64,000 bases of DNA from Orobanche coerulescens (lineage: Eukaryota > Streptophyta > Magnoliopsida > Lamiales > Orobanchaceae): the NCBI GenBank assembly GCA_033398695.1, contig CM065817.1, positions 67,692,001-67,756,000 of the forward strand, in the 5' to 3' direction. Under the pieces are notes generated by a model. The model was not told the origin of the DNA, made no database searches, and was given only the letters and a program-made list of their open reading frames with translations. Made by a program: the position numbers and the translations under genes. This document shows positions 1 through 64,000 of this stretch, piece after piece (the first letter of the stretch is position 1; the number at the start of each line of letters is the position of its first letter).

Positions 1-1090
1 TGCTTAAATATTTCGCAAGGAAAACGACACTACGGTGATTCGGTTTAAGTTCAAGGACCTAGTCGATACATATATGTATTACCTCAAGAACATGGAGGAC
101 ATTGTTATAACAATTTCTTCTACCATATATGAATTTCTCCAATGGAACATAAAAAGGAATCGGAGAATATAACTGAAATCATGCTTATCACTCCCACGAA
201 TTAAGGATGCTACAAGTTAAGGTATAATCGGGTTCTAAACTACAAAACATGGTGCTGGACTCAAAAGATCATTATCTAGTCCAAATATTTCCAAAACAAT
301 CTCAAAGTATAGTTCAAGAATGTAAACTCTAGCTTGGTGAATCGTAACATACCTTAAGAGATGAAAGAATAAGAAAATCTTCAATAAACTCTTCACCGGA
401 AGCTTGATCACCAACTCACCCGGCCTAAGCTTCCCAAATTCGGAGGTAATTGATGATATGAGGGATATGAGGTGAAGGATAGTCTAAAGAACACAAAAAT
501 CGGCCAAGGCAAAAGTGGGAAATGAAGTGAGGGTCATGTTCTATAAATAGATTTCTAAGCATTACGTACGTTATGCAATAACCCCTTACGTACGTAACAA
601 GCTTAACGTACGTTATACCCTAGCCTTTAGCGTACGTAATCGCCTGACCAGAGTTCCCTGGACTGATTTCGCCATTTCTTTACGTACGTAATCACACGGG
701 TTTTACGTATGTAATACTCATGTCTCTAGCGTACGTAACACATGCACCATAGCGTACGTAACGCCTATGTCCAGGTTCATGCGGGAATCACACGAATCTT
801 CCCCGGCCCTCTCTTCGGCCCCCACAAGCCGACCCTTATCCGAACCCAAGTTGACTTAGCTTACGTACGTTAAGAACATCAGATAACGTACGTAACACAG
901 CATCCTTAGTGTACGTTATGAACGCCTGTTAACATACGTTAGTACGTGCAAAATCATGCATGCAATGCTTAAAGATATAAAAACATAAGGGCACAAATAC
1001 GGGAAACGAATCTACGATTTATAACATCACGAAGTCGAAATAATACAAGGTTGAGTACAAGGTAAATACACCATTTATTCGGGCATTACA
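1..1090 (-). repeat. Element A 3' LTR (partial)
   Basis: This is a direct repeat of 7202-8291. On the minus strand it begins TGTAATGCCC. About 1.24 kb of this LTR lies left of the window. It carries a TATA box (541-551) and a palindrome cluster (563-936). Several differences from the other LTR are CpG transitions inside the palindromes. Confidence 0.93.
541..936 (-). promoter_or_regulatory. A 3' LTR: U3 palindrome cluster and TATA box
   Basis: About twelve sites of the form TTACGTACGTAA, TTAACGTACGTTA or TAGCGTACGTAA lie between 563 and 936 with irregular spacing. The TATA box CTATTTATAG (minus strand, 541-551) follows the last site by roughly 15-25 bp. I infer this is the U3 promoter. The palindromes contain ACGT and GTAC cores known as plant bZIP and SBP binding cores, but no binding factor is shown here. 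Confidence 0.7.
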
Positions 1091-1127
1091 TACTTCCCCT
1101 CTAAAAAGAAGTTTCGGCCCGAAACTT
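1091..1127 (-). other. A polypurine tract and adjacent hairpin
   Basis: On the minus strand an inverted repeat, AAGTTTCGGGCCGAAACTT, is followed by the purine-rich TTTTTAGAGGGGAAG directly before the 3' LTR start. The tract would prime plus-strand DNA synthesis. The same hairpin plus tract occurs in E, P and L. Confidence 0.75.
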
Positions 1128-2401
1128 AAGACGAAAATAATTCCGGGTATCTCGACTTCATACTCTCCTCCGTCTCCCAAGTTGCTTCTTCGACTCCATG
1201 CCGAGACCACTGAACTTTTACCAAGGAGATCGGTTTATTCCTCAACTGCTTGACTCGACTCTCGAGTATTTTTATTGGTCTCTCTTCGAAGGTGCCGTCA
1301 TTAGCTATCTCGATCTCGTCGAAATAAATAATATGACTGGGATCTGGTACATATTTCCGCAATTGGGATACATGAAACACGTTGTGAACGTGACTCAGCG
1401 ATGGCGGTAAGGCCAACCTGTATGCTAAATCCCCAACTCTCTCGAGGATCTCAAATGGTCCGATATATCTCGGACTTAGCTTGCCTTTCCTCCCAAAACG
1501 GAAAATTCCCCGTGTAGGAGACACCTTCAATAGTACGTGATCCCCAATGTCAAACTCCAGAGGGCGACGACGTACGTCTGCATAAGACTTCTGTCGACTC
1601 TGGGCAGTCAACAGTCTTTCTCTAATCAAAGCTATTTTCTCTTGAGTCTGAACTATCAATTCCGGTTCCGTCCCGATCAAATCCGAAGAATCATCCCAGC
1701 ACAGGGGTGATCGACATCTTCTCTCGTACAAAGCTTCAAACGGTGCCATCTTAATAGAAGCATGTCAACTGTTATTGTAGGTGAATTCAATCAATGGCAA
1801 ATGGACTTCCCAATCAGTTGACCAATCCAAAGCGCAAGCTCTAAGCATGTCTTCTACTGTTTGTATAGTCCTTTCGGACTGACCGTCCGTCTGAGGATGA
1901 TAAGCCGTGCTAAAGTTTAGCTCGGTCCCCAAAGCCCTGTGAACTGCCTTCCAGAAGTGCGACACGAAGCGACCATCTCGATCCGAAATAATGGTCTTCG
2001 GCGTCCCATGCAATCTGACTATCTCCGCAATAAATACTCGCGCCAATATCTCGGGTCCCCAAGTATCTTTAATTCCTAGGAAATGAGCCGACTTGGTTAG
2101 TCGATCAACTATAACCCAAATCATGTTCATTCCCGTCCTAGTCCTTGGCATACTAGTGATGAAGTCCATCGAGATATCTTCCCACTTCCATTCAGGGATC
2201 GGAAGCGGTTTTAACATTCCGGCAGGTCGTTGATGTTCAATCTTAACTCGCGACAAGTTAAACACTTCAAACGTACTCCACACGTCCTTCTTCATATTCC
2301 CCCACGGAAGTTTTGCTTTAAATCCTTATACATCTTACTACCGCACGGGTGAATAGAATAGGGCGCCATGAGCTTCCTTCAAAATTGTCCGTCTCAAATC
2401 A
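1126..2401 (-). pseudogene. A integrase with chromodomain-like C-terminus, interrupted
   Basis: This is the integrase part of the A polyprotein, which inserts the cDNA copy into the host genome. The core is readable at 1765-2295 with all three catalytic acidic residues: Asp in SMDFIT, Asp in IISDRDG and Glu in GQSERTIQ. A TGA replaces an expected Trp just after this segment (YNNS, stop, HAS). The remainder, at 1126-1749, runs through the KLSPRYIGPF motif to a chromodomain-like tail (VQWSRHGVEEATWE). The frame also shifts near 2300-2402, at the junction with RNase H, where the His-containing N-terminal motif is read in another frame. The catalytic core therefore looks intact, but the protein cannot be made from this copy without readthrough. 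Some breaks could be assembly errors. Confidence 0.85.
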
Positions 2402-4495: not shown

Positions 4496-4499
4496 ACCT

Positions 4500-6605: not shown

Positions 6606-7740
6606 CCTGATCATTTAAACCATAAATCAATCAACTGTGCATACACATATGCACTTCAATATGTTCATCAATACGAACAATTAACAACGAATATCACGAG
6701 AATTTTAGAATTTCATCTTATATTCAACAACATGAACAAAACCACAAGCATGATCAACGTTTCAATATAAATCGAACTCGACATATGATACTTGCCTCGG
6801 AAATGGCAAGAATGTAATACTCCGACAAACGTCACGCGTCCGTATGTCACCGCCCCACGATCGACCCCTATGCAAGGCTCGCACCTTTGTTCAAAAAGAG
6901 ATACAAGGAACTTAACATACCACTCGACACTAACATACGCTCACCGAATACTAATATTAAGATCGTAAAGTAGTGACACTAGGTTGGTTCACGGTTAGAA
7001 CACTAGGTAAGAACTAAACCGGGAACGATAAGGTACTCTATAAGGGCTGAACGATCATTTCGAAAATGAATTACCGTTGTTTAAAAGTTCATTGTTTCAC
7101 AAGGTGTTGAGGGTTTCGTGTTAAATAAGGAAATGAATGTCAAATCCCCATATGATCGGCCAAGATGATTCGACCCCCAATATTACTCAAGACGACAAGC
7201 ATGCTTAAATATTTCGCAAGGAAAACGACACTACGGTGATTCGGTTTAAGTTCAAGGACCTAGTCGATACATATATGTATTACCTCAAGAACATGGAGGA
7301 CATTGTTATAACAATTTCTTCTACCATATATGAATTTCTCCAATGGAACATAAAAAGGAATCGGAGAATATAACTGAAATCATGCTTATCACTCCCACGA
7401 ATTAAGGATGCTACAAGTTAAGGTATAATCGGGTTCTAAACTACAAAACATGGTGCTGGACTCAAAAGATCATTATCTAGTCCAAATATTTCCAAAACAA
7501 GCTCAAAGTATAGTTCAAGAATGTAAACTCTAGCTTGGTGAATCGTAACATACCTTAAGAGATGAAAGAATAAGAAAATTTTCAATAAACTCTTCACCGG
7601 AAGCTTGATCACCAACTCACCCGGCCTAAGCTTCCCAAATTCGGAGGTAATTGATGATATGAGGGATATGAGGTGAAGGATAGTCTCAAGAACACAAAAA
7701 TCGGCCAAGGCAAAAGTGGGAAATGAAGTGAGGGTCATGT

Positions 7741-8137
7741 TCTATAAATAGATTTCTAAGCATTACGTACGTTATGCAATAACCCCTTACGTACGTAACA
7801 AGCTTAACGTACGTTATACCCTAGCCTTTAGCGTACGTAATCACCTGACCAGAGTTCCCTGGACTGATTTCGCCATTTCTTTACGTACGTAATCACACGG
7901 GTTTTACGTACGTAATACTCATGTCTCTAGCGTACGTAACACATGCACCATAGCGTACGTAACGCCTATGTCCAGGTTCATGCGGGAATCACACGAATCT
8001 TCCCCGGCCCTCTCTTCGGCCCCCACAAGCCGACCCTTATCCGAACCCAAGTTGACTTAGCTTACGTACGTTAAGAACATCAGATAACGTACGTAACACA
8101 GCATCCTTAGCGTACGTTATGAACGCCTGTTAACGTA
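7741..8137 (-). promoter_or_regulatory. A 5' LTR: promoter with palindrome cluster and TATA box
   Basis: This is the counterpart of 541-936, with all palindromes better preserved. TATA lies at 7741-7751 (CTATTTATAGA on the minus strand), and about twelve CGTACG-core palindromes occur upstream up to 8137. This LTR would drive the element's transcript towards lower coordinates. Confidence 0.72.
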
Positions 8138-8948
8138 CGTTAGTACGTGCAAAATCATGCATGCAATGCTTAAAGATATAAAAACATAAGGGCACAAATA
8201 CGGGAAACCAATCTACGATTTATAACATCACGAAGTCGAAATAATACAAGGTTGAGTACAAGGTAAATACACCATTTATTCGGGCATTACATGTTTGACC
8301 TTGGACTATCACCACGACCTTTGGTTTGATAACCGTAGCCTTGGGCGTTTGTCGGACCATCACTATAACATTGGCCTTTGAGCTTTATCGCTCTCACGCT
8401 TAGTGACGTGCTGCCTTATCTCTTATCTGGACTCGATATGTCTTTAGCTTGGGTCTATGCCCGGATCATATCATAATCGCGACTATACCCGAATTCTACG
8501 ACCCAGTCACCTTAGGATCACTCCGTCCTTCGGCTTTAAGGGAATAGGATACGACGGTAGCTTTGCCTAGAACCGCAGCCACGCTGCTCGATTCATGACT
8601 TAGACTAGCTACCCCTCATGCATATAAATAGAAAAAGGGACTCTAGAGGTACTTGTACGGACTCTAGTGGTGGCTTCCGCCTGAAGGTCGTAGTACTTAG
8701 CTCCGCACAGCACTTACTCCCTATTTCTATTGAATAACAATTATTGTCGTGATTAACGACGATTATGCATATTATAAGATACTAATATGATTATTTGATA
8801 ATAAATGGACTAAGGTAAAGTAGAGGAATTAGTTCAACCGGTTGATGATTAGATTGCTATTGTGCGAGTCTTAGCATAATCTTATAATAAACTCATAAAC
8901 TTAAATAGTTCGGTATGGATTGATTATACGTCCGAAAATTACCAACTT

Positions 8949-9240
8949 TATTGAGAAAAGTCCGTTATGATATGAGGATTGAAGGTCAGAAGTCGCATGA
9001 AAGTTTAACTTTGGGAAATTACAATTCTGCCCTTCCGTCTTTTAAGTACTATCATTATTATTTTTACTATAATTGTATACATTTGGATAATTCGGTACGG
9101 GTTGGTCATACGTCCGAAAATTACGAACTTTATTGCGAAAAGTCCATTATGATATGAGAATTGAAGGTGAAAAGTTGCATGAAAGTTTACTTTTCGAAAA
9201 TTATAATTCTGCCCTTCCGTTTTTTAAGTACTATCATTAT
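8949..9240 (-). repeat. 182-bp tandem repeats in the O 3' LTR (interrupted by L)
   Basis: Units begin with TTATTGCGAAAAGTCCG-like sequence at 8949 and 9131. The third resumes after L (about 25490), followed by a degenerate unit at about 25667. Each unit includes a Met-initiated short reading frame, but these are by-products of the repeat. Confidence 0.8.
9236..9240. repeat. Target-site duplication of L, left copy (ATTAT)
   Basis: ATTAT directly precedes TGTAACACCC. The same five bases follow the third L LTR at 25414-25418, and the O LTR sequence rejoins smoothly there. This marks the whole three-LTR array as one insertion site. Confidence 0.85.
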
Positions 9241-10274
9241 TGTAACACCCCCAGATCCGACCGGGAATATTACAACGCCGTGGGCCCCGAGATGGAACCC
9301 ACAAGGCTGAATGAAATTTTCGCAAACATTTACAAACGCCCAAGAGGCTAACGACGGTATTATCTATTAAAAACATTCGAAGATATATAAAACTCATTTA
9401 TCAAACCGTCGTAAAAACTTATTTGAAACCACAAGGCCCAAAATGCCAAAACTCAACAGTTTAAAAACATACGTTAAGCTATCGCTTACACGTACCGACA
9501 GAATATATTTAAAAAATAATTGCCAAAGTAACCTAAGTTACCAGATACCAAAAAGGCCATTTAAAAATACTCACGCAGCGGATAAAGACAAACAATTAAA
9601 ATACTCTAGCAGCGGAATACAACAACTGATCAGAAACTCAAAACACAAATACATGCCCTTGCCAGTATCCTCCGGGAAGTTCATCTCTCCACGACCGCTA
9701 CAAGCTTGATAATCCAAGAACCTAAAAAGAAAGCCCACGACGGGATCAGCCATAATATCCAACAATGAAAACCATCACATCTCGTCAATAATTACATATC
9801 AATGGAAATACTAAGTAAGAATACGACCAATGTAATCTTACCGTCGTAACTTTACGAGAATCCACGATTCGTATCCTTAACAACGCATTAAAATAATACC
9901 GAAATATCTGTACGGTATCTCAACAATACTCAAGGTTCTCAAAACATTATCATAACTCGCGATACGGAAATTATACCAACTCTGGCCAATTCAATCCATC
10001 GGATAACATCGACAATTCCAATACGATAATCGATTGTCCATCAAAGACAAGTATCAAGGAAATACGGAACATACCTCAAGATACGAAATACCATGACAAT
10101 CACGTCAGTCTAATCCAAGATCATATCAACATAACATACGGACATGGTCCTAACACAAGACCTATAAATGCATACTCATATGACAACGTCAATATGATCA
10201 CAACAATAACGACAATGTATACTTATGGCAAACCCATAATATACATATGCACAACAACAATACCTGGTAATCCG

Positions 10275-10412
10275 ATGATCCAGCGTTCACTGCCTAGATC
10301 CCCCGATGATCCCGTCAGACCAACCCGAGGTGGAAAACCCGTCCGATGATCCAACGACGCTAGCATAGATCACCCGATGATCCCGTCGGACCAACACGAG
10401 GTGGACATACAA
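10275..10412 (-). repeat. GATGATCC repeat pair in L LTR copy 1
   Basis: Two units of about 65-70 bp contain CCCGATGATCCCGTCGGACC and CGAGGTGGA. They repeat in copies 2 and 3 (about 16,410 and 22,568) and resemble the repeats of the A LTR at 6420-6605. Confidence 0.6.
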
Positions 10413-11573
10413 CAACAATGCACAAATGCATATAACAATGATACACAATGCATGACAACAACGATACATGCATGTATCACAACATGAAATGACAAAAATG
10501 ATTAGAGTACTTGCCCCGAGTCCTTTGAGAGCAATATCGATGTCCAGACCATCACAAACCATTATTCTGAATATTCGACGATCCGAAATGTCACGGATGG
10601 TAAATAATTCATGCCTTTGTCTATACCATGATGTATCCTCGATACCAAGTATGCCAACAAGAATGTAAATCATATACATTATGATTTAATTACCAAAACT
10701 CAAATACAACCTATAATCTCAACTCTCGTGTGATTACGATTTATAAACATTGCTATACGAATTATAAACGAATGAAACTGAAACCATTCATTAAATCTTA
10801 TAAACTGAGCAAGTAATAACTTGCCTCGATACCAATGAAGCCGTTACCAATTCCTTGTCGTCGTCTACATGTCCCTCGGCCCTGATCAAAGCAATCTACG
10901 AACATTCTTGAATACGACCGCAAAGCATGGTTCTAAACATCGATCAATAATCTCAACCTATTACAATAATCGATTTAACATACATTCGATAACAATCAAC
11001 AATCGATATAACTAATCCACAAACCCAACAATTCCAAAATATCTCGATTAAACACAAGTCCGAACAATCTAACTCAAACAATTACGAATTCATTCTCATG
11101 ATTCCACAAAGCCCACATATCGATTCGATAAGGCGAGAATACAAACTTAACCGAAATATTCCAATCAATTTCTCTTTCAAAACTTCAATCGAACACTTTG
11201 AAGGTGGAATTCAAAGGTATATTCGAATCATCAATCAACAAACACCAACCACATCAAGAACACGAAGAACATAATCACAAACATATATATCCTTCGACAT
11301 TACATGATTCTAGCCATCGATACAAACTAAACCACCAAAATATATCAAGAATCTCAAACATCCCAAAATATTAGAGTTCAAGCCAATTACCTTCAATCCG
11401 GCGAAAGAATCAATAATGATGTTATAATCCTTGTTCCAAGCTTTCCTAGATGTTATCACTTGATAAACCAACTCAAAAGCTGAGGTTTAGGGGTTAAAAA
11501 CCGAGTTTGGGTGATTTGGGACGAAAGGGGATCGTGTAGGATGGGTTGGGAAATGAAATTCCCGACTGCTTTA

Positions 11574-12880
11574 CGTTTTTATACGCCTGTGCATGTTAGC
11601 GTCGCTAACTTCATCAATAGCGTGCGCTACCTGCTCCTTAATACAGACAATATAGTTTTTGCCATTTTGAGCATAACTCACTCATCCGGACTCCGATTAA
11701 CTCACCGTTTGAACCATTAGAAAGCTAACTCGATGCTCTATTATACTGTTATGTTTCAGAATTTTTGGAGTTTTCAAGAATCGGTGGTGATTTTCCAAAG
11801 TGGAACCTTATACACATTACTTTCCAAACAAGTGTCCAAATCTTATTTCCACTAACATTTCAACATATAGTCTTCTTAATCATATCATATGCACCAAGAA
11901 TCATAATCACCTGCATGTTCATCATCATACGAAGTAAACAATAACAACAATATTAAAAACCCGAAATGAAGGGAGATATTAACCAACATATCTCTTGAAG
12001 AAAAACAACACCGTTCAAAACCACACGAATCATATCAATATCCGCATATCAACCATATTATCAACATAACTCAGTAAACCATCTCATAACCATACTCATC
12101 AACTCATAAACATGACGATCATCAACTCAAGAACATCATATACAATTCAAAATGAAATCCCAAAGTGGAGAGTAATTACCTCTTTGAAGGAATGGATTGA
12201 ATCCCAAGGTTGAATCCGTTTCAACCACTTCCAAGCTTCAAATGTTGTTAGGAATGATCAACTCAAGTGTTTGGAACCTCAACTTCTATCTATGACCTCT
12301 ATCTATCGTTTCACATGAAGAAATGGACGGAAATGACGAATAATGGCCAATCAGATTTATATATATATCAGACATTATTAACGACGCTAACATCTTCGCT
12401 AACGACGTTACACACTTAGCGTGCGCTAATCGCCTTTGTTAGCGTGCGCTATCAAGTCCGTGAGGCAAATCGTCTTATCCGCATGAAGTGATTTACGACG
12501 CAATGCCCATGCAATAACGTACGTAAATGCCTCTATTTAGCGTACGCAAGTGTCCTACCTTAGCGTGCGCTACTCATAGTTGACTCGTTTGTCTGTATGC
12601 TTCCGAAGACAGGTCCACACGCCAAAAGTGTTGACGAGGATAAGATTCCTTTTTGTCCGATATACAGTTAGCGTGCGCTAATCAACATGCATTAGCGTGC
12701 GCTATCACTACATTACAAGATCCGTTGACTTATCGAACGTGCGTCGAAAGTGGCTCGGTCCACACGCAGATTCCTTCCGATCCGATCGCATTAGCGTGCA
12801 TTATCTTATATCCGTAGCGCGGCGCTAAACTCGCACGATAGCGTGCGCTACTCATGATTATTAGCGTGCGCTAATAATGT
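11574..12880 (-). promoter_or_regulatory. L LTR copy 1: TATA box and palindrome clusters
   Basis: On the minus strand a TATA box (CGTATAAAAACG, 11574-11585) is preceded by two palindromes at about 11598-11632. A dense cluster follows at 12,380-12,880, mainly TTAGCGTGCGCTAA type. Several sites are damaged in this copy only (for example CGACG in place of CGTACG). Confidence 0.65.
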
Positions 12881-13118
12881 TACACTTAGCCATTTTCAGC
12901 TATTCTTGTCCAACGTCTCAACATACAGAATACGAACATACGACATACTGAATACATATACTTCTTACATCCAATTGTCGACCAAGTACGACAATTACAC
13001 CAATACAGATGTCTCGGTCCTTCAATTATTTTACCCATACTGTACAGATTCCACGCTGTACAACATAACTCGGATAAAATAATATTAAACAACAGTAGTG
13101 GAAATTCCGGATATTACA

Positions 13119-13158
13119 TACTACACCACTTAAAATAAGTTTCGTCCTCGAAACTTGC
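13119..13158 (-). other. L polypurine-tract region and hairpin (internal 1)
   Basis: The minus strand reads AGTTTCGAGGACGAAACT, then TATTTTAAGTGGTGTAG, then the LTR start TGTAATATCC. The hairpin matches the one in E base for base in its stems, although L has no pol frame for it to encode. Confidence 0.65.
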
Positions 13159-15354
13159 AATCCGTCATAGAAAACAAACTAACGGTTCAACCAAAATATC
13201 CCGAAATAATCACGACAACGATTAATCATCATTATTACCGAATAACCAAAATAGCATACTTACATATGCGCCAAGTCGACGATCTCCTGAGATACTAGCA
13301 AGTGACTTCACTGAAAAGCCTCAACACGCTTACAATAACAATTCCATAAGTCCCAACCAGATATATTATCGTCAGATGAAATAATCTATCCGTGTCGATC
13401 TTTGTCTCGATCGCACAATCAAATCCCAATCCGGATACAAATCAATAATACACGATACAACTGTGAAACAACTGTCTAAAACAATGACAACAGACCCCGA
13501 AATATCAATATAACGTCCGAACGCTCATACGATCGTTAACGATGATTAATCAACAAACTAGCCAAGAATATCATCGACATGATAAACTCTAATTCGACCA
13601 TCCAAAGGTCAAAACACACTTCGAGAATACTTTCACACGGTAAGCTCCAACATGGTCAACACGGTAACCACTAAATAGATATACGAAAGAATAACATTCT
13701 CAAAATGACACACCAATCACGCATAAGAAATCTCAATAAACATACCCCACTGGCGAACATATCTAATCCTATATGGAGTGGGAACGACTACTCAATATTC
13801 AAAGCAACCAAAGATGGGGTCACCATCTCCAATGTCTTGGTTTCACAAAACCCACGCCCAAAATTACATCCTCGTGCATGAATTCTACATCCCGTAGCAT
13901 ATTCTTCTTATCCGATCAATCGACCGATCATCCCTAGATAACCAACTACCATACTTAAGTTAGAATCTTTATTCATCGTACCGTACTGATGCCTTATCCA
14001 GTTTGTGAGTCACACTCATAACTCCATCATGATATGCATTATGCACTAAATGCGTATTTATATCGATCATATTTTCAAAACCAGTTTGAAATCATAGTCT
14101 CGTCAAGAGACAAATTTCCAAAGTTCTTTCAAACATTTCAAAACTCAAAACATAAATTTTCGTAAGTCCACGAAATCAATTTTCAAAAAATTAAATCGGC
14201 TTGGTGCCAAGTATTCGATAACAGCTTCCTTCGATTCTACACGATTTCAAGTTTCAAATGAAAACTATGCAAATGCCGGACTACATCCATATTACTGTAT
14301 ACCAATTTGATTCGCTATTCCATCGGAAAACCACACGATAAAGTTCCGAAATTTTCAATATATAAACTCCGACTAAAACTCCTTTTCCACATATGACTCG
14401 CAATGTCAATCATTTTCCATCCTGGATCACCTCAATTATGCTATGACAATGCATTGAAACAAATCAACACAAATAAAGACTTCCCGAGAAGTTTCTTTTG
14501 AACAAGTAATCCGTAACCCCGAAAGGCAGGAACGACATAGATAAATGATTGATAAAGTGTTTTACAAGTCTCGGGAGTTTTTAAGAAACAAAAGTCTTTT
14601 GAAATATTAGGGTCTCACCCGTATCTCGCTCCGCATTACAAGAAGTTTAAAAAGTAGGAAACTCTTTTTCGACCCCAAGTCCCGAGTTATAAAACAATTT
14701 CAAAAATCTATTGGGTCTCGGCCCAAAATCATTTACGATAAAACATCCGTAAAACATTCATTTTGAAAAGTATCATTTTCAAATGCTCAAAAACAGCTTC
14801 ATATATCTCAAAATGAACTAACATGACTACATGTTCTCTGAACAATCCACAATATTTCTCCCAAATGCACAAATTGCCAAAACTTAATCGACATATTGAT
14901 TTCCAAAATCATAACTTCTCAAGATCATCAATCCTGTCCCAACTCGTCATCTTATACTATAACGCATAATATCTTTCTCAACCTCGTAACATATCAACTT
15001 AGAACGACAATAAATCTCAATGCAATTCAAAATTCAATACTTACAGATCGTGAAGCCGACGATTCCCGTGATACTGGCACATGTCTCGACTCAAGAAAAT
15101 ACTGACGTATATTTTCAAAACACACATTTTGCAAACTCAGTTCAACTCGAGAAAACAACACAGCTCTATCTGAAGAAACACGTTAACACCATTTGAAAAA
15201 GTTACAACAATCCAGTATCACACTAGTAAATCACATAACGCACAAGCCCGAGTGAACAACAAAAACCCAGAGCTCAAACACTTGTCAACCGACAACTCGA
15301 ATGACACGACAAAAGCACGACCCAACTCGACCCGACTGCCTAGGTTTTCACAAC

Positions 15355-15370
15355 CTAAGCTCTGATACCA
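15355..15370 (-). other. L primer-binding site 1
   Basis: The minus strand reads TGGTATCAGAGCTTAG, complementary to the initiator tRNA-Met 3' end, five bases from the LTR. The leader that follows (GGTTGTGAAAACCTAGGCAG) closely matches the P leader. Confidence 0.85.
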
Positions 15371-15375
15371 TATTC

Positions 15376-18300
15376 TGTAACACCCCCAGATCCGACCGAG
15401 AATATTACAACGCCGTGGGCCCCGAGATGGAACCCACAAGGCTGAATGAAATTTTCGCAAACATTTACAAACGCCCAAGAGGCTAACGACGGTATTATCT
15501 ATTAAAAACATTCGAAGATTTATAAAACTCATTTATCAAACCGTCGTAAAAACTTATTTGAAACCACAAGGCCCAAAATGCCAAAACTCAACAGTTTAAA
15601 AACATACGTTAAGCTATCGCTTACACGTACCGACAGAATATATTTAAAAAATAATTGCCAAAGTAACCTAAGTTACCAGATACCAAAAAGGCCATTTAAA
15701 AATACTCACGCAGCGGATAAAGACAAACAATTAAAATACTCTAGCAAATGAATACAACAACCGATCGAAACTCAAAACACAAATACATGCCCTTGCCAGT
15801 ATCCTCCGGGAAGTTCATCTCTCCACGACCGCTACAAGCTTGATAATCCAAGAACCTAAAAAGAAAGCCCACGACGGATCAGCCATAATATCCAACAATG
15901 AAAACCATCACATCTCACAATAATTACATATCAATGGAAATACTAAGTAAGAATACGACCAATGTAATCTTACCGTCAGAACTTACGAGAATCCACGATT
16001 CGTATCCTTAACAACGCATTAAAATAATACCGAAATATCATGCGGTATCTCAACAATACTCAAGGTTCTCAAAACATTATCATAACTCGCGATACGGAAA
16101 TTATACCAACTCTGGCCAATTCAATCCATCGGATAACATCGACAATTCCAATACGATAATCGATTGTCCATCAAAGACAAGTATCAAGGAAATACGGAAC
16201 ATACCTCAAGATACGAAATACCATGACAATCACGCTACCTAATCCAAGATCATATCAACATAACATACGGACATGGTCCTAACACAAGACCTATAAATGC
16301 ATACTCATATGACAACGTCAATATGATCACAACAATAACGACAATGTATACTTATGGCAAACCCATAATATACATATGCACAACAACAATACCTGGTAAT
16401 CCGATGATCCAGCGTTCACTGCCTAGATCCCCCGATGATCCCGTCAGACCAACCCGAGGTGGAAAACCCGTCCGATGATCCAGCGCACGCTAGCATAGAT
16501 CCCCCGATGATCCCGTCGGACCAACACGAGGTGGACATACAACAACAATGCACAAATGCATATAACAATGATACACAATGCATGACAACAACGATACATG
16601 CATGTATCACAACATGAAATGACAAAAATGATTAGAGTACTTGCCCCGAGTCCTTCGAGAGCAATATCGATGTCCAGACCATCACAAACCATTATTCTGA
16701 ATATTCGACGATCCGAAATGTCACGGATGGTAAATAATTCATGCCTTTGTCTATACCATGATGTATCCTCGATACCAAGTATGCCAACAAGAATGTAAAT
16801 CATATACATTATGATTTAATTACCAAAACTCAAATACAACCTATAATCTCAACTCTCGTGTGATTACGATTTATAAACATTGCTATACGAATTATAAACG
16901 AATGAAACTGAAACCATTCATTAAATCTTATAAACTGAGCAAGTAATAACTTGCCTCGATACCAATGAAGCCGTTACCAATTCCTTGTCGTCGTCTACAT
17001 GTCCTCGGCCCGATCAAAGCAATCTACGAACATTCTTGAATACGACCGCAAAGCATGGTTCTAAACATCGATCAATAATCTCAACCTATTACAATAATCG
17101 ATTTAACATACATTCGATAACAATCAACAATCGATATAACTAATCCACAAACCCAACAATTCCAAAATATCTCGATTAAACACAAGTCCGAACAATCTAA
17201 CTCAAACAATTACGAATTCATTCTCATGATTCCACAAAGCCCACATATCGATTCGATAAGGCGAGAATACAAACTTAACCGAAATATTCCAATCAATTTC
17301 TCTTTCAAAACTTCAATCGAACACTTTGAAGGTGGAATTCAAAGGTATATTCGAATCATCAATCAACAAACACCAACCACATCAAGAACACGAAGAACAT
17401 AATCACAAACATATATATCCTTCGACATTACATGATTCTAGCCATCGATACAAACTAAACCACCAAAATATATCAAGAATCTCAAACATCCCAAAATATT
17501 AGAGTTCAAGCCAATTACCTTCAATCCGTGAAAGAATCAATAATGATGTTATAATCCTTGTTCCAAGCTTTCCTAGATGTTATCACTTGATAAACCAACT
17601 CAAAAGCCGAGGTTTAGGGTTAAAACCGAGTTTGGGTGATTTGGGACGAAAGGGGATCGTGTAGGATGGGTTGGGAAATGAAATTCCCGACTGCTTTACG
17701 TTTTTATACGCCCAGGCATGTTAGCGTACGCTAACTTCATCAATAGCGTGCGCTACCTGTTCCCAGAATACAGACAATATAGTTTTTGCCATTTTGAGCA
17801 TAACTCACTCATCTGGACTCCGATTAACTCACCGTTTGAACCATTAGAAAGCTAACTCGATGCTCTATTATACTGTTATGTTTCAGAATTTTTGGAGTTT
17901 TCAAGAATCGGTGGTGATTTTCCAAAGTGGAACCTTATACACATTACTTTCCAAACAAGTGTCCAAATCTTATTTCCACTAACATTTCAACATATAGTCT
18001 TCTTAATCATATCATATGCACCAAGAATCATAATCACCTGCATGTTCATCATCATACGAAGTAAACAATAACAACAATATTAAAAACCCGAAATGAAGGG
18101 AGATATTAACCAACATATCTCTTGAAGAAAAACAACACCGTTCAAAACCACACGAATCATATCAATATCCGCATATCAACCATATTATCAACATAACTCA
18201 GTAAACCATCTCATAACCATACTCATCAACTCATAAACATGACGATCATCAACTCAAGAACATCATATACAATTCAAAATGAAATCCCAAAGTGGAGAGT

Positions 18301-41228: not shown

Positions 41229-41545
41229 CCATCCACGTGCGGAAGTCAACTGATGTCCGATTCCCTCCTAACGTATGCAACGGATGACATGTTACGTACG
41301 TTAAGACACAGGATTAACGTACGTTAATCTATCTGTGCGTACGCTAACGCCACCAGAACAGGTCAAAAATGAAATTCCCCAATTAACATCTAACCATCAA
41401 ACATGAAGTGAATAACAAAATAAGTAACTCAATTCTATAACATCTCAACAGTATAGTCATATACTAAATGCAACATGATTCAACGATATTCAAATTATCT
41501 AAACAATACAACAGTAAGGATGAAGAATTACAGTCGGATATTATA
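41229..41545 (-). repeat. Element E': inverted LTR fragment of the E family
   Basis: Its minus strand aligns with the first about 320 bp of the E LTR (46,244-46,565), including its palindromes at 41,265-41,350. The outer end reads TATAATATCC instead of TGTAATATCC. It is cut by P; the remainder would lie left of P, outside the window. Confidence 0.8.
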
Positions 41546-46243: not shown

Positions 46244-49052
46244 TGTAATATCCGACTGTAAACCTTCATCCTTACTGTTTTTTTGTTCAGATAATTTGAC
46301 TATCATTGAATCATGTTGCATTTATTATATGACATACGTCGAGACGTTATGGAATTGAGTTAATTATCATTGTTATTCGCCTTATGTTTGTTGATTTGAT
46401 GATTGATTGGAGAGTTGCATTTTTTGAACCTATTCTGTTAGTGTAGCGTACGCTACATAGTGTGATTAACGTACGTTAATCTTGTGTCTTAACGCACGTA
46501 ATTCGTTACCAGTTGCGTACGTTAAGAGAGAATCAGACATCAGTTGACTTCTGCACGTGAGGCTGATACCCGTTGCCATGCACGTGAAGTGTGATTGGTT
46601 GTCGTGTCGGTTAGAGTCAACCCTATTTAACGTACGTAATACCCTATTCGTTAGCGTACGTAAATGGCCTGTGTAATCGATTCAGTAGCCCCTGTAATTC
46701 GATTACGTACGTAACCCTCTACTTGTTAGCGTACATAATAGTGTTAACGTACGCTAATTTTGTTCGATAGCGTACGTTAAGGCTGTACAGTCTATTTAAA
46801 GACACAGCCTGATTTTCATTTCTTCACAACTCTAAACCGATTTTCTCTCCATATATCATCCCTCTGCACCCCCAATTCGATATCAACCTCCTCCAACTTG
46901 TGTTTAAGCCTTAAATCTTGGAGTGGAGCTCATTACCTTGAAGATTAGGAGGTGTTCTTGAGCTTGGAGTGTACTTTCTTGTAGTGTTGAGAGTTGTTCA
47001 TCATTTCTGGAGGTATGTGCGCATCTCTTCTCCGTACTTTTCGTATGTTGGTGTTAATAATGAGGAATAGTTCACCTAGAGTTAAATTAAGCAAGTAAAA
47101 CATGGTTATAATTAAACTTTTTAAACACTTCTTGATGAATATGATAAATGAAGGTTTGTATTAGATGTGTTCTTGATGTTGTAGTGATGGTAACCATGTT
47201 TGTAGTTATCATACTCATCTTGCTTGATGAATTTAGCTCAGTAGAACATTGTTGGATCGGTTAGCTTCATCATAGCTGGATTTAATCAAGAACTTGATAT
47301 CATAGAGTGTTTAAACACCATTTTAGGTATTTAATTAACTTGGGAAGAACTTGATAATGTTAAAGATAGGATTAGATGATCTTGTTCAGAAATCTTAGAA
47401 GCTTTAACAATCATTATGGTTCAGCTTCACAAGTCTTTAAAGAATGATAAGGATCTTGATAATTACAACAATAACTTTTCATTAATCTAATGTGTTGATA
47501 ACTTAGAATGTGTTTGATCATCATGCTAAATAGATAGTTTTCTTAAGAAGGTGATTCTGTTTATGAATGATAATGTCGTGGTAGATTGAGTATCGAATTC
47601 GTTATGACTATCCTTGTATAATAGTATATGTTGTAGAACATAAGAATTTTATTAAACCAATTTTATTGGCGAATTGAAGATGTTTTGTTCATAGAATGAC
47701 AAGAGTATTAAAGGACACTTTTAGTATGGTAATCCGATTTTGGAATATGAATTAGATGTATTGAAACCTTTCATTAATCGTTAAGGTATTTATTAGGGTG
47801 GAATGAATTATTCGAGTAGGTTGCAGGCGTCGTTCCTACGAATTGATATTAATATTATGCGAATATGTTATTGAATGAATTACGTTTCATTGAAGGTTTC
47901 TTGTTCAATTAAGTGTTTAACCGAGGATACCGTCTGTTTGATCATTTGGAGAAGGACTATCTTTCGCTTACAGAATTGAGGCAAGTTATCTTGCTTGGTT
48001 ATAATGATGATTAGATTCTTTTGATGATTATACGTTTCATGTGTATGAAATGTTGATGAATTGGTGACTCTTAAATTGATATTATCCTTGAAGTTGTTCC
48101 ATTTTTCATCATGGGATTGCATTCCCAAGTATGTCACTTTGAATCGTTGATCTCGTTGGTCCTCGTTGTAACTTCGGTGAGTTTTTCTTGATCCTTAATC
48201 GGATATGTGATTTATTGAATTCATTGTCATGATGTATCGTGACATATCTGGAATCATATCTGCGTGCCGATTGGTTATTGTGTAGGATTTTTAGCCGAGC
48301 ACTTATATAGTCATACGTCGATGTTTCCGTATTGGACTGTGCACACGAGACGTAGTTCGTGAGGCTAATTAGGTACATTGTCACACGTATATTCTGGATT
48401 CCGTATACGAGGTGGACATGTACACGGACACATTTCGGGATCGGGCGTACTGTGATGTCCATATTGTGCCATATTGTTTAATCGTTCATAGTCCATGTAT
48501 GATTGGATATGTTCGATGATTTGGGACTGATTGTTCATACGCGCGAGGGGTATGTTCAGTAGTCAGGATGTTTTCTTTGAGATCTAATATATGTGGATTA
48601 TATAATGTCAGGAGAATCATTTATCATGTATATCTGACCCTGTGTTATGGGCGAAATACTTGTGTTGTATTTTAGGTTGAGGCAAAGGCAAGGCACGGGA
48701 AGAGCACGGTGACGGCAAAGGGTTCGAGGGATACTAGTTCGGGGGGGCCATGTCTTTTTGTCCGGTTATTGTTCAAACCGCGTAATATCACTTTAATTCC
48801 GCTTTAGTTATATTATCGTTCAGTTGTATTTTGAAGTATATTCCATCTCCATATGGTTTGTACTTGTTTTTCAGATCCTGTGTATTATAAGGCCGCTGGC
48901 CCTACTATTAGTGAACTCCTAATCGGAGTAATGACTATATATTGTGGTTCGGTATCACAAGTAATACTTATTTAATCTGTATTTTGATATCGCCTGGTGG
49001 GTCCCAGTGTGGGGTCCAGGGTACTGTAATAGTCGCCTTTTAGGGTGTTAGA
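46244..49052 (+). repeat. E 5' LTR (2809 bp)
   Basis: It runs from TGTAATATCC to GGGTGTTAGA. It holds palindromes and TATA (46,443-46,801). The part from about 47,696 to 48,772 is missing from the 3' LTR. No genes. Confidence 0.9.
46443..46801 (+). promoter_or_regulatory. E 5' LTR: palindrome cluster and TATA box
   Basis: About eleven sites lie between 46,443 and 46,782, for example TAGCGTACGCTA, TTAACGTACGTTAA and TTACGTACGTAA. The TATA-like TCTATTTAAAG (46791-46801) follows the last site by about 11 bp. Confidence 0.7.
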
Positions 49053-54218: not shown

Positions 54219-55942
54219 TGTAATATCCGACTATAAACCTTCATTCTTACTGTTGTTTTTTTCAGATAATTTGACTATCGTTGAATCATATTGCATTTAT
54301 TATATGACTTACGTCGAGACGTTATGGAATTGAGATAATTACTGTTGTTATTCGCCTTATGTTTGTTGATTTGATGATTGATTGGAGAGTTGCATTTTTT
54401 GAACCTATTCTGTTAGCGTAGCGTACGCTACATAGTGTGATTAATGCACATTAATCTTGTGTCTTAACGTACGTAATTCGTTACCAGTTGCGTACGTTAA
54501 GAGAGAATCAGACATCATTTGACTTTTGCACGTGAGGATGATACCCGTTGCCATGCACGTGAAGTGTGATTGGCTGTCGTGTCGGTCAGAGTCAACCCTA
54601 TTTAACGTACGTAATACCATCTTCGTTATCGTACATAAATGGCCTGTGTAATCGATCCAGTAGACCCTGTAATTCAATTACGTATGTAACCCTCTACTTG
54701 TTAGCGTATGTAATAGTGTTAACCTACGCTAATTTTGTTCGATAGCGTACGTTAAGGCTGTACAGTCTATTTAAAGACACAGCCTGATTTTCATTTCTTC
54801 ACAACTCTAAACCGATTTTCTCTCCATATATCGTCCCTCTGCACCCCAAATCGATATCAACCTCCACCAACTTGTGTTTAAGCCTTAAATCTTGGAGTGG
54901 AGATCATTACCTTGAAGATTAGGAGGTGTTCTTGATCTTGGAGTGTACTTTCTTGTAGTGTTGAGAGTTGTTCATCATTTCTGGAGGTATGTGTGCATCT
55001 CTTCTCTGTACTTTTCGTATATTGGTGTTAAAAATGAGGAATACTTCACCTAGAGTCAAATTAAGCAAGTAAAACATGGTTATAATTAAACTTTTTAAAC
55101 ACTTCTTGATGAATATGATAAATGAGGGTTTAGATTAGATGTGTTCTTGATGTTGTAGTGATGGTAACCATGTTTGTGGTTATCATACTCATCTTTCTAG
55201 ATGAATTTAGCTCATTAGAACATTTTTGGATCGGTTAGCTTCATCATAGCTGGATTTAATCAAGAACTTGATATCATAGAGTGTTTAAACACCATTTTAG
55301 GTATTTAATTACCTTGGGATGAACTTGATAATGTTAAAGATAGGATTAGATGATCTTGTTCAGAAATCTTAGAACCTTTAACAATCATTATGGTTCAGCT
55401 TCACAAGTCTTTGAAGAATGATAAGGATCTTTATAATTACAACAATAACTTTTCATTAATCTAATGTGTTGATAACTTAGAATGTGTTTGATCATCATGC
55501 TAAATAGATAGTGTTCTTAAGAAGGTGATTCTGTTTATGAATGATAATCTCATGGTAGATTGAGTATCGAATTTGTTATGACTGTCCTTGTATAATAGTA
55601 GATGTTGTAGAACATAAGAATTTGATTAAACCAATTTTATTGGCGAATTGAAGATGTTTTGTTCAAACCGTATAATATAACTTTAATTCCGCTTTATTTA
55701 TATTATCGTTCGGTTTTATTTTGAAGTATATTCCATCTCCATATGGTTTGTACTTGTTTTTCGGATCCTGTGTATTATAAGGCCGCTGGCCATACTATTA
55801 GTGAACTCCTAATCGGAGTAATGACTATTTATTGTGGTTCGGTATCACAAGTAATATTTATTTAATCTGTATTTTGATATCGCCTGGTGGGTCCCAGTGT
55901 GGGGTCCACGGCACTGTAATAGTTGCCTTTTGTGGTGTTATA
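54219..55942 (+). repeat. E 3' LTR (1724 bp, internally deleted)
   Basis: Both ends match the 5' LTR, but about 1.08 kb is absent. The join near 55,660 lies at TTGTTCA, a short sequence present at both deletion borders in the 5' LTR (about 47,690 and 48,768). Palindromes at 54,415-54,750 are more decayed than in the 5' LTR. TATA is at 54,767-54,777. Confidence 0.9.
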
Positions 55943-57473
55943 AGTCGTTCACACTATAGTTGATTGTTAGATGTTAAGTGGAGATTTTTTTTTACTTGTT
56001 GTTGCCCTTAGCGTGTGCCAGCACATTAACCTTACATACGCTATGTACATAGCATTACGTACGTAACACTTCTATGTTAACCTACGTATTGGAATCAATC
56101 AGCAGATTACCTTTCGGCGGGTGGGGCCGAGCATGTAGGCAGTGGTCGGGAGTCGATCGTGACAGCTTAAGTCAACAGCCATTACGTACGTATGCCTTAG
56201 CGTACGTAATGTACAAGAGATTTACGTACATTCATTTTGGCAACGTACGTAAGAACAGTGTATTTTGAATCAGTAGCATCTGGGGATCTGTTACATACGT
56301 AATACTCGTAAGGTTACGTACGTAATGTTGTAACGTACGTTAATTTTTATCTATAGCATACGTAATGCTGAATTTGGGTTATAAAAGTATGGGTTGCCTT
56401 TCATTTCTGCAAGACTCTATTTCATCATCCCTCTCTCAGAACCGATCCCCTGCCCCCTTAAGATCATATTATTGTCCTCCAATCTCATGTTAGAGCTTCA
56501 ACACTTGGATTTTAGCTTGGCAACAAGAAGCTAGGAGTGTGTTCTTGGTAGTTGTGGTGCTATACTTCATCCCTTTCTTGAGGTTGGTTATCTTACTCTT
56601 GTTGTTTCATATGATTGTTGTTGTAGTAAGGAGTAGTTCTTGGAGTGTTAAAATAACCTGGTAAATCATGATGAACATTGAAGTTATTTAGTTTGGAACA
56701 TGATAATATTGTTAGAACCATTCCTTGAATGATTGATGAAGTGGTGGAATAATATGTTCAATATAAAACCCTTGGTAATCATGTTAAAAACCAGGAGATT
56801 AGAGTTATGAATATGTTCTTAATTGCTAGTAGGATACTATGGTGTTATAGCCATAAATGGGAGAAAGTTTAACAACTCATTGGGAAGAATTTGATGATGT
56901 CTTTAGAGTTTCAAAAACCCTCAATGATAATTATGTTTTAAGCAAATTTTAAGGGATGATAATGGATTATGAAGAACACAAGTATAACCTTTATATATTC
57001 GAATTAATCGAATGTGTGGATAACTCAAGTAGGTGTTGATCACTAAATTAATATGTTGATAATGTTCTTAGGACAATTATAACGATTATAGGTGATAATG
57101 ATGCGGTAGAATTAATGAACGAATTCAATACGTTGATCCTCGTGTATTATGAGACGTAAATTAGGATGATGTTCTTATTGTGCTTAAAACATAAAGTTAT
57201 GCTTTCATTTCTGGATTTGCTTAACGTAATCATTGGAAAGAAGATGAAGAATGTAGATAAACACAAACTTTTAACATGTTCAACGTTAATTGGAAGTATT
57301 GATGGATTGAGAGTATGTTTAATCATCATAGTATTACATTGATAATGTTATTGACTTCAAATGCTTGACATTAATGTTAGAATATGTGGGCGAATCTAAT
57401 AAACTTGATATATGATAATTCGTAATTGGAGCGTTAGAATGTTTGATAAGATAGTTGAACTATTCGAGTAAAG
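55943..57473 (+). repeat. Element F LTR, second piece
   Basis: It continues F after E. Its distal part (for example ATTCGAGTA near 57,464) aligns with the inside of the E LTR, so F is a distant E relative and the LTR does not end here. O2 cuts it at 57474. No gene. Confidence 0.72.
56010..56388 (+). promoter_or_regulatory. F LTR: palindrome cluster and TATA box
   Basis: About twelve sites (TTACGTACGTAA, CATTACGTACGTATG, TAACGTACGTTAA) lie at 56,010-56,366. The TATA box TTATAAAAGT (56379-56388) follows the last one by about 15-20 bp. Confidence 0.68.
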
Positions 57474-60648: not shown

Positions 60649-60652
60649 GGAG

Positions 60653-61424: not shown

Positions 61425-62443
61425 ATGGCTGACCGAAGACGCGGACGCCCTCGCATGAATCATGACGAGCAGCATCAACGCGATGATCGCTCACGCTCTC
61501 CTCTACGAGGAGGAATTGGGAATGATGCCATGGCCCAAGCCCTCACTCAACTGACAAACTTCCTACAACAGCAGACTGCTAACAACGGGAACAACAACGA
61601 AACTCATGATCGCACCTTGGAAAGGTTCTTACGCTTCAACCCGCCTACCTTTGACGGGGAACCCGACGATATCAAAGTTGAACTCTGGCTGGAGAAAATT
61701 GAGGTAATTTTCAACGCCCTTCAGTATACTAATGAACAACGGATATCACTGGCTGCATTATGACTCGAGGCCGCAGCTCATGACTGGTGGAGGAGTGTCA
61801 ACGAGCGCTGGACGAGAGAAAACCATGTCAGGACATGGGCTAACTTCCTGACCGACTTCCGAACTCAATACATGTCAGCAGCATCCAGAGAGGCTAGACG
61901 AGACGAGTTCTACCACCTGAAGGAAGGATCCATGACAGTCGCTCAATATGAAGCCCAGTTTAACAGGTTGTCTAAATACGCACCGGGATTGGTAACAACT
62001 GAGAGGACAATCTCTATAAATTCACTAGAGGATTGAGGCAGTCGCTTCAAAAGAGTCTTCTAACTGTCCAGTTGACGACACTTACCCAAGCAGTGGAAGC
62101 CGCCACCCGGGTCGAGAGCGGAACTGTGAGGTTAGCTCAACAGCAAAGCCGTTTCTCCAACAACGCCAAGAGGCCTGCTACCTGACCAACATCAATGCCA
62201 CCACAGAAGTTTAAGAGGACGGGGACTCAAGAAAGCTCGAGTGGAACAAAGGCACCAGTTCTCAACAAACCAACAACGCCTTGTACCCACTATGGTAGGA
62301 AAGGGCATAAGTCAGAGTTGTGTTGGAGAAAGCTCGGAAAGTGCCTACGTTGCGGCAACCCAGATCATCAAATTCGAGAATGCCCAGATATGAACACCCC
62401 GGCGATCAAACCAGCCACAGCAGCTAAGCCAGGAAACAAATGA
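61425..62443 (+). pseudogene. gag: O2 gag with zinc knuckles, broken by stops and a frameshift
   Basis: It opens MADRRRGRPRMNHDEQ, a basic start. Capsid landmarks are NPPTFDGEPDDIKVELWL, then a TGA at about 61,761, then AAAHDWWRSVNERW and EFYHLKEGSMTVAQYEAQF. A frameshift near 62,010 is followed by VQLTTLTQAVEAATRV and another TGA near 62,183. The nucleocapsid has one knuckle missing its second Cys (CTHYGRKGHKSELC) and one intact (CLRCGNPDHQIREC). It is typical of the Tekay-like gag family but not functional. Confidence 0.85.
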
Positions 62444-62977
62444 GGGAAAGCCCCAGCATGAGTATTTTCTCTAGCTGGCCAGGAGGCACCGAAAAACAAC
62501 GATGTGGTGGAAGGTACACTCCTGATATCTAATCAACTTGCACGAACACTTATAGATCCAGGATCGTCCCATTCGTTTGTTGCACCACATTTTTCTAAGA
62601 AACATGATAGACCGTTAGAATCCTTGCCATTATGTCTAGAAGTATCTACCCCGATTGGAGTTAGTCAGCTAGTGGATAAAGTCCATTCTGCGTGTGATGT
62701 GATCATCAGTGGTAACTGTTACTCTGCCGATTTAGTAGTGCTTCCAATATTAGAGTATGACATCATCCTAGGAATGGATTGGCTGTCTAAGCACTACACA
62801 CAATTAGATTGTCATTCTAAGATAGTTAGGTTTTGCGAACCTAACAAGCTAATTGTGGAATTAATTAGAGACGCTAGAGTCAACCTAGCACCTATAATAT
62901 CAGCTATCAAGGCTAGGAAGGCATTTGCCAAAGGGGCAACTAGATTTTTAGCCTTCGTCATTAACAAGCCCAAGAGT
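62444..62977 (+). pseudogene. pol: O2 protease, truncated by C
   Basis: Separated from gag by a TGA and another stop, the frame resumes at 62504. The active site reads LIDPGSSHSF; O2 keeps DPG where O has DPR. The distal segment YDIILGMDWLSKH and the linker [16 protein letters not shown] follow, matching O up to the point where C is inserted. The RT domain is absent from the window. Codons past 62978 in the same open stretch belong to C. Confidence 0.85.
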
Positions 62978-64000
62978 TGTTGGAACATTTTGTTCCATAC
63001 ATATATTAATAATGTTTTGATGATTAAAGTTGAAAAGCAAAATAAAACAATGAAGAGGCGAAGCAAGAATCGAAGAAAACGAAAACTCAAAAAAGGTGTT
63101 CTGGACTAAGCTAACATACGCAATGAGTATTGTATAGCGTACGTAATATTTGAATCATAACGTACGTAACAGCATGTTTATAACGTACGTAATGAGAAGA
63201 TTCTGAGTTCAAACAAGATGAACTTTGGAAATGATGTCATGGCATAGGTCAGCAAGCAACGGACATATTGACCTATTATAACGTACGTAATGATGTCTTA
63301 TTAACATACGTAAGAAAAAAAACAAAAGCTACTGGACTCTTACTGGGAGATGCTAACGTACGTAACAAGGTTATATTAACATACGTAAGACGGCTAATGG
63401 CCGTAATGGGAAGGAGATAGCGGCCGTAATGAAGTGTCAGATTGCTAACGGCTACTTTGATCAAGAAGGCTATAAATACCATGCCTATGGTATTGATTCA
63501 GAACAACAACTTCAAGCATACTACACATTCACCTGAGATTGATATTCATTGTATTGTTGTTGTAATATTGAGCTTACATTGAGTGATTGAGTGTTATACA
63601 CAAAATCATACACGAGTGGTAAAAGAAAAGATACGATTGGATTCGGTGTTATTAGGATCAAGGATCCGGCATTGTTAGAATCGCAATCACTATCTTCGTG
63701 AGGTTTATCTAGTACCGATAGAAAGCTAGAGCGGTTGATTCCTTGTCCTACGAAAAGGATAACGGTTTAACTTGGACCGACACAAAGACAAGTACGAGTG
63801 GTTTATCACGTACCAATAGAAGACGTATTGTAACGGTTATACCTCGACCGATAGAATAGAGGAGAAGAGGTTTTTATTTAGCCTATTGAAAAAGATACCG
63901 AGAGAGGACGTAGGCTCGTTTATAGCCGAACCTCTATAAATCCTTGTGTGCTTTAAATTTCCGCACTTGATATTTACGCTTCCGCAACATGGCGCAAATA
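62978..64000 (+). repeat. Element C: LTR of a probable Copia (SIRE-like) element
   Basis: It begins TGTTGGAACATTTTGTTCC inside O2 protease, followed by AATGTTTTGATGATTAAAG, a start typical of SIRE/Maximus-type Copia LTRs. The presumed target duplication AGAGT (62973-62977) has no visible partner. The LTR runs to or near the window edge; an end within the last 15 bases is possible but unproven. Confidence 0.6.
63108..63480 (+). promoter_or_regulatory. C LTR: palindrome cluster and TATA box
   Basis: About eight sites of TAACGTACGTAA, TAGCGTACGTAA or TTAACATACGTAA type are followed by two TACGGCC-type half-sites (AATGGCCGTAATG, AGCGGCCGTAATG). The TATA box GGCTATAAATACC (63468-63480) lies about 36 bp further. 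Both palindrome types thus occur in one LTR. Confidence 0.65.

Follow-up and report, generated by a model that had tools for sequence, protein, structure and literature searches.

Why should the long terminal repeats (LTRs) of unrelated retrotransposon families carry the same short, CpG-rich palindromes in clusters that end beside the TATA box? The question is raised by a 64-kb stretch of contig C17 (hereafter the window), spanning positions 67,692,001-67,756,000, from the 3.646-Gb genome of Orobanche coerulescens, a holoparasitic broomrape. An earlier note on this stretch had described such clusters in the LTR families A, L, E, F, and C and in a further element, T, and had proposed convergent or transferred promoter modules, the palindromes being factor-binding sites, methylation targets, or cruciform-forming DNA. 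About 330 kb were examined as letters, including the window and a 200-kb sample of 20 stretches taken at round coordinates outside it (L008 to L027; numbered names of this kind denote loci, and L alone denotes the family); genome-wide figures are word counts only. The palindromes prove to be one part of an ordered design present in both Ty3/gypsy and Ty1/copia elements. This design is probably a composite LTR promoter module that has been inherited, has been exchanged at least once, and is bound cooperatively by a dimeric factor.

The motif, here called P1, emerged from an open count of half-sites in the sample, with no motif picked beforehand: AT repeats aside, the commonest 5-bp inverted halves around a 2-bp center were TAGCG (74) and TTACG (30). 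Its common form is TWRCGNNCGYWA. Exact P1 sites number 91 in the window, as against 0, 0, 0, 0, and 1 in five dinucleotide shuffles, and 148 in the sample, as against 0, 1, 3, 2, and 2, far above the shuffled controls that had been proposed as a check. Genome-wide, the pattern TWRCGYRCGYWA occurs 2,337,506 times, or about once per 1.56 kb, compared to 21,793 for the reversed pattern, and a stricter P1 14-mer occurs 189,507/191,017 times compared to 38/45 for its control. At no more than one mismatch to TWRCGNNCGYWA, A has 12 sites in each of two copies, L has 10, 14, and 14 in three copies, E has 10 and 8, F has 9, C has 10, and T has 2, bearing out the clusters described in these elements; the O family, said to lack them, has 0 and 0. 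The columns flanking clustered sites hold at most 0.12 bits. The core is CG-YR-CG in most arrays, with a GC center in 2 of the 10 sites of C and 7 of the 8 of L014a. Three spellings recur and can be mixed within single arrays: the ACGTACGT type (A, E, F, C, L008, L016, and L021), the GCG(CA/CG)CGC type (L, L001, L006, L011, L012, L014b, L018, L020, and L025), and the TTACGGCCGTAA type (L014a and T). The existence of three spellings suggests more than one factor. A palindrome control, WTRCGYRCGYAW (203,119 places versus 22,737 reversed), was set aside because it overlaps P1, all but one among the matches listed being P1 sites.

Within the arrays, the sites lie on a lattice. Across 17 arrays, each represented by one copy (the set used for intervals, polarity, and wide gaps), 125 of 189 P1 intervals measure 22-24 bp, the others being of 50-54 (14), 63-67 (8), 72-76 (8), 96-115 (14), 16-19 (12), and 20-21 bp (6) or of other lengths (2). 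On contig C1, 41 of the 82 intervals below 150 bp among the first 100 TWRCGYRCGYWA places listed there are likewise 22-24 bp. Moreover, A, L, E, F, C, L006, L008, L016, and L020 end alike on the sense strand, with intervals of 50-53, 22-24, 16-18, and 22-24 bp and then TATA. When each array's own spacings are reordered, the chance of this ending is 0.002-0.010, a figure that measures tightness and is no blind test, since the group of nine was formed after the pattern had been seen and several of its members are related. The full spacing is 23,23,23,98,23,52,23,18,23 in the copia element C and 23,23,23,105,23,51,24,18,23 in both L008 and L016; the lattice without the exact shared order is present in L001, L011, L012, L014a, L014b, L018, L021, and L025. 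The lattice and the common interval order contradict the earlier description of the spacing as irregular.

The arrays are also in register with the TATA box. TATA starts 9-14 bp past the last P1 at 15 of 46 array ends (15 of 23 arrays), and no array has it at both ends; with shuffled flanks, the average was 0.5 and the highest count 4 in 2,000 runs. The TATA pattern of this test was widened by TATAGA once L006 had been seen. Counted from where the last site begins, the distance to TATA is thus 21-26 bp, or about one step of the lattice. The 23 arrays comprise five from the window, four loci fetched by motif (L001, L003, L005, and L006), and fourteen from the sample; L002, L004, and L007 were excluded as being the same places, and so were the second copies found for A, L, E, L014a, and L020, both of the small clusters in L020, the fragment with four sites at 41269, and L017. 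The observation that the last site lies near TATA in A, E, F, and L can be sharpened to a distance of 11-14 bp in A, L copies 2 and 3, E, and F, with L copy 1 having lost its TATA-proximal sites. CATTT is found 22-32 bp past TATA in 12 of the 17 arrays, a count with no shuffled control. In the sense direction, the P1 center is asymmetric, with 82 CA as against 7 TG, alongside 91 TA, 14 CG, 9 GC, and 3 others; for eight arrays of this set of 17 (F, L001, L006, L008, L011, L014a, L016, and L020), the orientation comes from TATA alone. In the other nine (A, L, E, C, L012, L014b, L018, L021, and L025), pol, gag, or the primer-binding site (PBS) fixes the orientation, and a hand count gives 43 CA and 5 TG; L018 and L025 taken alone have 4 CA versus 5 TG. 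This polarity, together with the spacing lock, argues for protein binding over cruciforms.

Two superfamilies carry the design, as had been claimed. A and E are Ty3/gypsy: A encodes gag, protease, reverse transcriptase (RT), RNase H, and SH3_Tf2-1 domains, with a chromodomain under the Pfam cutoff (21.9 of 25.1 bits), E encodes protease, RNase H, and an integrase zinc domain, and the two are 72-73% identical in DNA over two pol stretches. The array starts past a same-direction gypsy pol match, at a distance of 264 bp in L014b, 504 bp in L021, 523 bp in L025, and 2,180 bp in L018. C is Ty1/copia: its second LTR, at L039:3090-3395, is 94.8% identical over 307 bp, a copia gag (PF14223, E value 1.6e-13) lies between the two LTRs, and five GGGGAG/GGGGGA tracts, a Sirevirus-like trait, stand ahead of the second. 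L012 is akin to C (tblastx 68% over 167 residues) and has a gag with an E value of 5.2e-32. The coding sequence gives no superfamily for F and L, and the OTA element of the earlier description was not found among the elements examined. L, with LTRs of about 3.87 kb, looks nonautonomous, because it has no gypsy pol match and no open reading frame (ORF) of more than 111 amino acids wholly within its internal part. Both main P1 spellings occur in each superfamily (A, E, and L021 versus L014b, L018, and L025 in gypsy; C versus L012 in copia), a pattern suggestive of parallel changes in spelling.

Between the sites, length is kept and sequence drifts. When the five final sites are compared among nine arrays (36 pairs), identity is 0.775 in P1 and 0.456 in the spacers, and 125 of 144 comparisons show spacer lengths no more than 1 bp apart. 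Spacers of the same slot compared to those of other slots score 0.441 versus 0.421 in A, E, F, C, L008, and L016, 0.584 versus 0.464 in the related L, L020, and L006, and 0.456 versus 0.418 in all nine pooled, with 0.394 for random 11-mers and 0.57 for the spacers of the E-F pair. The statement that the sequence between sites is not shared hence holds across families for the 9- to 12-bp spacers and fails for the L-type spacers and for the wide gaps, which have elements in common. One of these elements is a second palindrome, P2 (CAGTAGCTACTG; full form CAGTAGCTACTGGACT), often with GACT next to it. CAG-N6-CTG occurs in 8 of 14 intervals of 50-54 bp, 5 of 8 of 63-67 bp, and 3 of 8 of 72-76 bp, with a shuffled mean of 0.1 for each. 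The P2 word CAGTAGCYACTGGACT is found genome-wide at 9,970 and 9,727 places, versus 0 and 0 when reversed. In the sample and window, 24 of 39 loose P2 matches (up to four mismatches; both strands of one dyad can count) lie near clustered P1 sites, in surroundings that take up 7.7% of the DNA, whereas the reversed control has 2 of 30 there. The distance of P2 from a P1 site is 23 bp in L012 and L025, 21 bp in C, 20 bp in E and L016, and about 32 bp in the others. TTGAC or GTCAA is present in all 14 gaps of at least 84 bp (shuffled mean 2.2, maximum 6, in 300 runs), and the long gaps of gypsy type are similar by eye around TTTCGGC...GTGGGG and GGAATCTTATCC.

Since the ordered grammar, P2, and the TTGAC boxes in the wide gaps are common to A, E, F, and L, common descent is likelier than convergence for these families, and the convergence once proposed for them is not the simplest account. 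Homologous intervening sequence with an inherited motif, which the earlier note had named as the outcome that would tell against its own proposal, is what A, E, F, and L point to. For C, a transfer is suggested by the common nine-interval grammar and the P2 match, with a TATA distance and downstream sequence of its own. We favor a picture in which the U3 regions of these LTR retrotransposons would act as promoters of modular, composite build. The chief component is an array of 6-22 P1 sites on a 23/24-bp lattice, broken at set places by P2 and by a longer TTGAC-box segment, and the end of the array places the start of TATA about one lattice step past the last P1. A candidate dimeric DNA-binding protein would occupy successive P1 sites, with neighbors touching at 23-bp steps, and the directed row of bound protein would position the transcription machinery at TATA. 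The many redundant sites may let the promoter outlast CpG decay. The module would have been inherited among gypsy-type LTRs, with an old exchange involving a copia (Sirevirus-like) lineage. A promoter module of factor-binding sites, as already proposed, fits the TATA register, the lattice, the polarity, and the retention of sites while spacers drift, and it is from these that we infer binding. It is possible, though we say so only tentatively, that the genome holds one cis-regulatory code for two retrotransposon superfamilies, a TATA-locked 23-bp lattice of dimer sites plus P2, in which the P1 spellings changed in parallel with diverging trans-acting factors.

Several observations weigh against the promoter module. 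TATA is absent from the 9- to 14-bp position in 8 of the 23 arrays: L014b has none, and in C and L012, whose downstream sequence differs from that of the other arrays, it lies at 41 and 38 bp. The terminal order of L012 differs from that of C. Three stretches downstream of copia RT matches, which may not reach the LTR, have no P1, so that the module is not general in copia. Of the NAC, SBP, bZIP, BZR, CAMTA, and VOZ motifs considered, none is known to fit all three P1 spellings. Both P2 and TTGAC were spotted by eye ahead of counting. Finally, CpG changes are no rarer inside P1 (11/195) than outside (15/220; p 0.69), in a count in which the L23 pair is shown and not pooled. Between LTR copies, transitions are about 3 to 36 times as frequent at CpG positions as elsewhere, a usual sign of methylation. 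Being equally raised inside and outside P1, the CpG transitions leave the sites neither protected nor special, contrary to the idea of a methylation target. As inserted copies are unprotected at P1, its conservation across families points to selection among active copies.

Other explanations draw on the same observations. By analogy with VANC, which serves VANDAL transposons, the arrays might recruit a sequence-specific anti-silencing protein, host-borne or transposon-encoded, that would free any array-bearing element; we regard this as unlikely. The targets of VANC are short motifs packed densely into noncoding transposon parts, VANC6 also acts on an unrelated motif-bearing element (PMC5735166), and several P1 spellings would suit several related readers. 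However, the TATA lock points to a promoter function, VANC arrays expand by tandem repeats whereas P1 spacers are near chance (0.421 between slots versus 0.394 random), and an encoded candidate protein neither turned up nor was searched for. It is quite unlikely that each family gained P1 by itself under a host factor favoring this spacing, even if same-slot spacers are hardly more alike than other-slot spacers in A, E, F, C, L008, and L016 and heat-response sites arose repeatedly in Brassicaceae copia elements (PMC5059998). For gypsy and copia to have acquired one nine-interval order separately, with P2 at the same gap, is a great deal to expect, and spacer similarity is kept in some gypsy-type pairs such as E-F.

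We give little credence to a role at the RNA level, in which the U3 copy in the 3' LTR would fold via paired P1 sites for dimerization or as a source of small RNAs. The folds of the A and E arrays are indeed stabler than shuffles (z -4.45 and -5.35), and a small-RNA excess has been reported at maize Sirevirus palindrome clusters (PMC10760457, citing 2016 work), yet any self-complementary sites would fold thus whatever their role, and pairing demands neither a fixed 23-bp step nor a fixed TATA distance. Recognition of the arrays by a host protein that silences the elements would accord with CpG-rich LTR sites and raised CpG transitions but is very improbable, as elements should then lose P1 and instead keep it while spacers change. 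That the arrays are an idle relic of a single ancestral LTR seems scarcely credible: the interval order common to gypsy-type LTRs and the leftover spacer similarity in some pairs would be expected of such a relic, but idle CpG-rich sites should vanish before the spacers, given the pace of CpG transitions, and the opposite is seen.

Table. Array-bearing elements in the window, with window coordinates
Feature	Position	Strand	Remarks
A copy 1 LTR	1-1091	-	perhaps starts before the window
A copy 1 P1 array	562-941	-	12 sites; sense spacing 23,23,23,111,23,24,23,52,24,18,24
A copy 1 TATA	542-549	-	12 bp past last P1
A copy 1 P2-like CAGGGAACTCTG	649-660	-	in 52-bp interval; coordinate by hand
A copy 1 long gap	762-860	-	with GTCAA box
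A copy 2 LTR	7202-8292	-	99.3% identical to copy 1
A copy 2 P1 array	7763-8142	-	12 exact sites; TATA 7743-7750
L copy 1 LTR	9241-13118	-	array 12417-12873; TATA-proximal sites lost
L copy 2 LTR	15376-19248	-	array 18507-19003 (14 sites); TATA 18488-18495
L copy 2 tRNA-iMet-like PBS	just outside 15376
L copy 3 LTR	21532-25413	-	array 24670-25168 (14 sites); TATA 24651-24658
E-like LTR fragment	41269-41346	-	four P1 sites
T	42310-42409	.	two exact TTACGGCCGTAA-type sites, 42398-42409 and about 42326-42337
E copy 1 P1 array	46444-46779	+	TATA 46793-46800
E P2-like CAGTAGCCCCTG	46683-46694	+	in 51-bp interval
E copy 2 P1 array	54419-54754	+	TATA 54768-54775
F P1 array	56009-56365	+	TATA 56380-56387; P2-like CAGTAGCATCTG at 56271-56282
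C LTR (Ty1/copia)	62978-64000	+	ends about 19 bp past the window (about 64019)
C P1 array	63112-63429	+	TATA 63471-63478
C P2-like CAAAAGCTACTG, then GACT	63323-63334	+	in 52-bp interval

Some features of these elements may be recorded in their own right. Family L is laid out over 9241-25413 as LTR-internal-LTR-internal-LTR, the three 3.87-kb LTRs being nearly identical and the two internal parts short, an arrangement such as neighboring copies might leave on recombining. In this family, one or two P1 sites are set off from the main array, some 750 bp downstream of TATA (17722-17755, 23885-23918, and 11618-11629), and small P1 clusters at 725-806 and 6734-6812 of L020 resemble them. Three TTACGGCCGTAA-type arrays about 1.1 kb apart at L014:2812-5240, each with TATA at 10 bp, form a tandem promoter-like unit. 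The first LTR of E (46244-49050) is apparently interrupted between 47691 and 48765, and its second LTR extends to about 55940. C directly follows a gypsy-type protease region (62189-62977) and was apparently inserted into a gypsy element. The P1-free O family has linked repeats of about 182 bp at 8895-9241 and 33003-33715, and a PF03641 fragment (LOG-type lysine decarboxylase) at 44577-44888 is the sole host-gene match among the scanned ORFs of the window. The CpG observed/expected ratio of the pooled sample stretches is 1.06 despite fast CpG transitions, which suggests rapid repeat turnover; a loss of DNA methylation, considered in view of this ratio, is disfavored by those transitions and by a chromomethylase-like coding sequence. 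A 438-amino-acid CMT2-like frame at L028:1375-2691, with 80% to Sesamum, its closest named relative, is unbroken where the genome's other chromomethylase matches are split and is perhaps a retrocopy.

Among known systems, the nearest is the RM box cluster of Sireviruses (Bousios et al. 2010, PMC2829016), which consists of at least eight CpG-rich palindromes placed within the first LTR half, with a conserved TATA downstream and divergent sequence between them, has a core of CGG-CCG, was given as of unknown function, and was called Sirevirus-specific relative to classic Ty1/copia elements. The P1 arrays of A, L, E, F, and C match it in having at least eight palindromes per LTR and, in most arrays, in having TATA shortly downstream. 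They differ in their CG-NN-CG core and in their hosts, A and E being Ty3/gypsy and Sirevirus membership applying at best to C and L012. They differ also in the 23-bp lattice, ordered grammar, P2, and TATA register, the parts of PMC2829016 consulted giving no lattice or grammar. P1 thus extends this kind of cluster to Ty3/gypsy with a defined grammar and is no Sirevirus feature as such. The VANC motif arrays of VANDAL DNA transposons (YAGTATTAY or AGTTGTMC), which grow by tandem repeats and have a known anti-silencing reader (PMC5735166), resemble P1 arrays as many copies of a short motif in noncoding transposon parts, with the motif also in an unrelated element. However, TWRCGNNCGYWA is neither YAGTATTAY nor AGTTGT(C/A)C, and the low information in P1 flanks and the near-random other-slot spacers reveal no tandem-repeat units. 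ONSEN and other Brassicaceae copia LTRs bear nGAAn heat-shock units whose number and spacing set strength (PMC5059998). They are comparable as host-factor sites in the LTRs of several families, if P1 is indeed bound by such a factor, but the P1 matrix has no nGAAn/nTTCn core, and the consulted parts of that report show no comparably long common order for heat-response elements. More generally, arrays of sometimes palindromic repeats have been described as a common layout in transposon cis-regulatory regions (PMC10760457), a layout that P1 arrays share. A description of the P1 motif or grammar was not found in the literature searched, where the matches to six P1 spellings, judged by title, included none on plant transposons.

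That the gypsy chromoviruses and the copia elements of a single plant have one ordered design suggests that a strict grammar can be common to LTR promoters of different superfamilies. The situation lends itself well to asking by what route promoter modules pass between unrelated elements. P1 and P2 on the 23-bp lattice also constitute a concrete probe with which to fish out the factor. As 86% of the host genome consists of repeats (PMC11219998), the code may bear on how the transposons of this plant multiplied. If the parallel change of spelling is true, a genome-wide arms race, in which unrelated transposons track a diverging family of factors, would be legible from more than two million sites.

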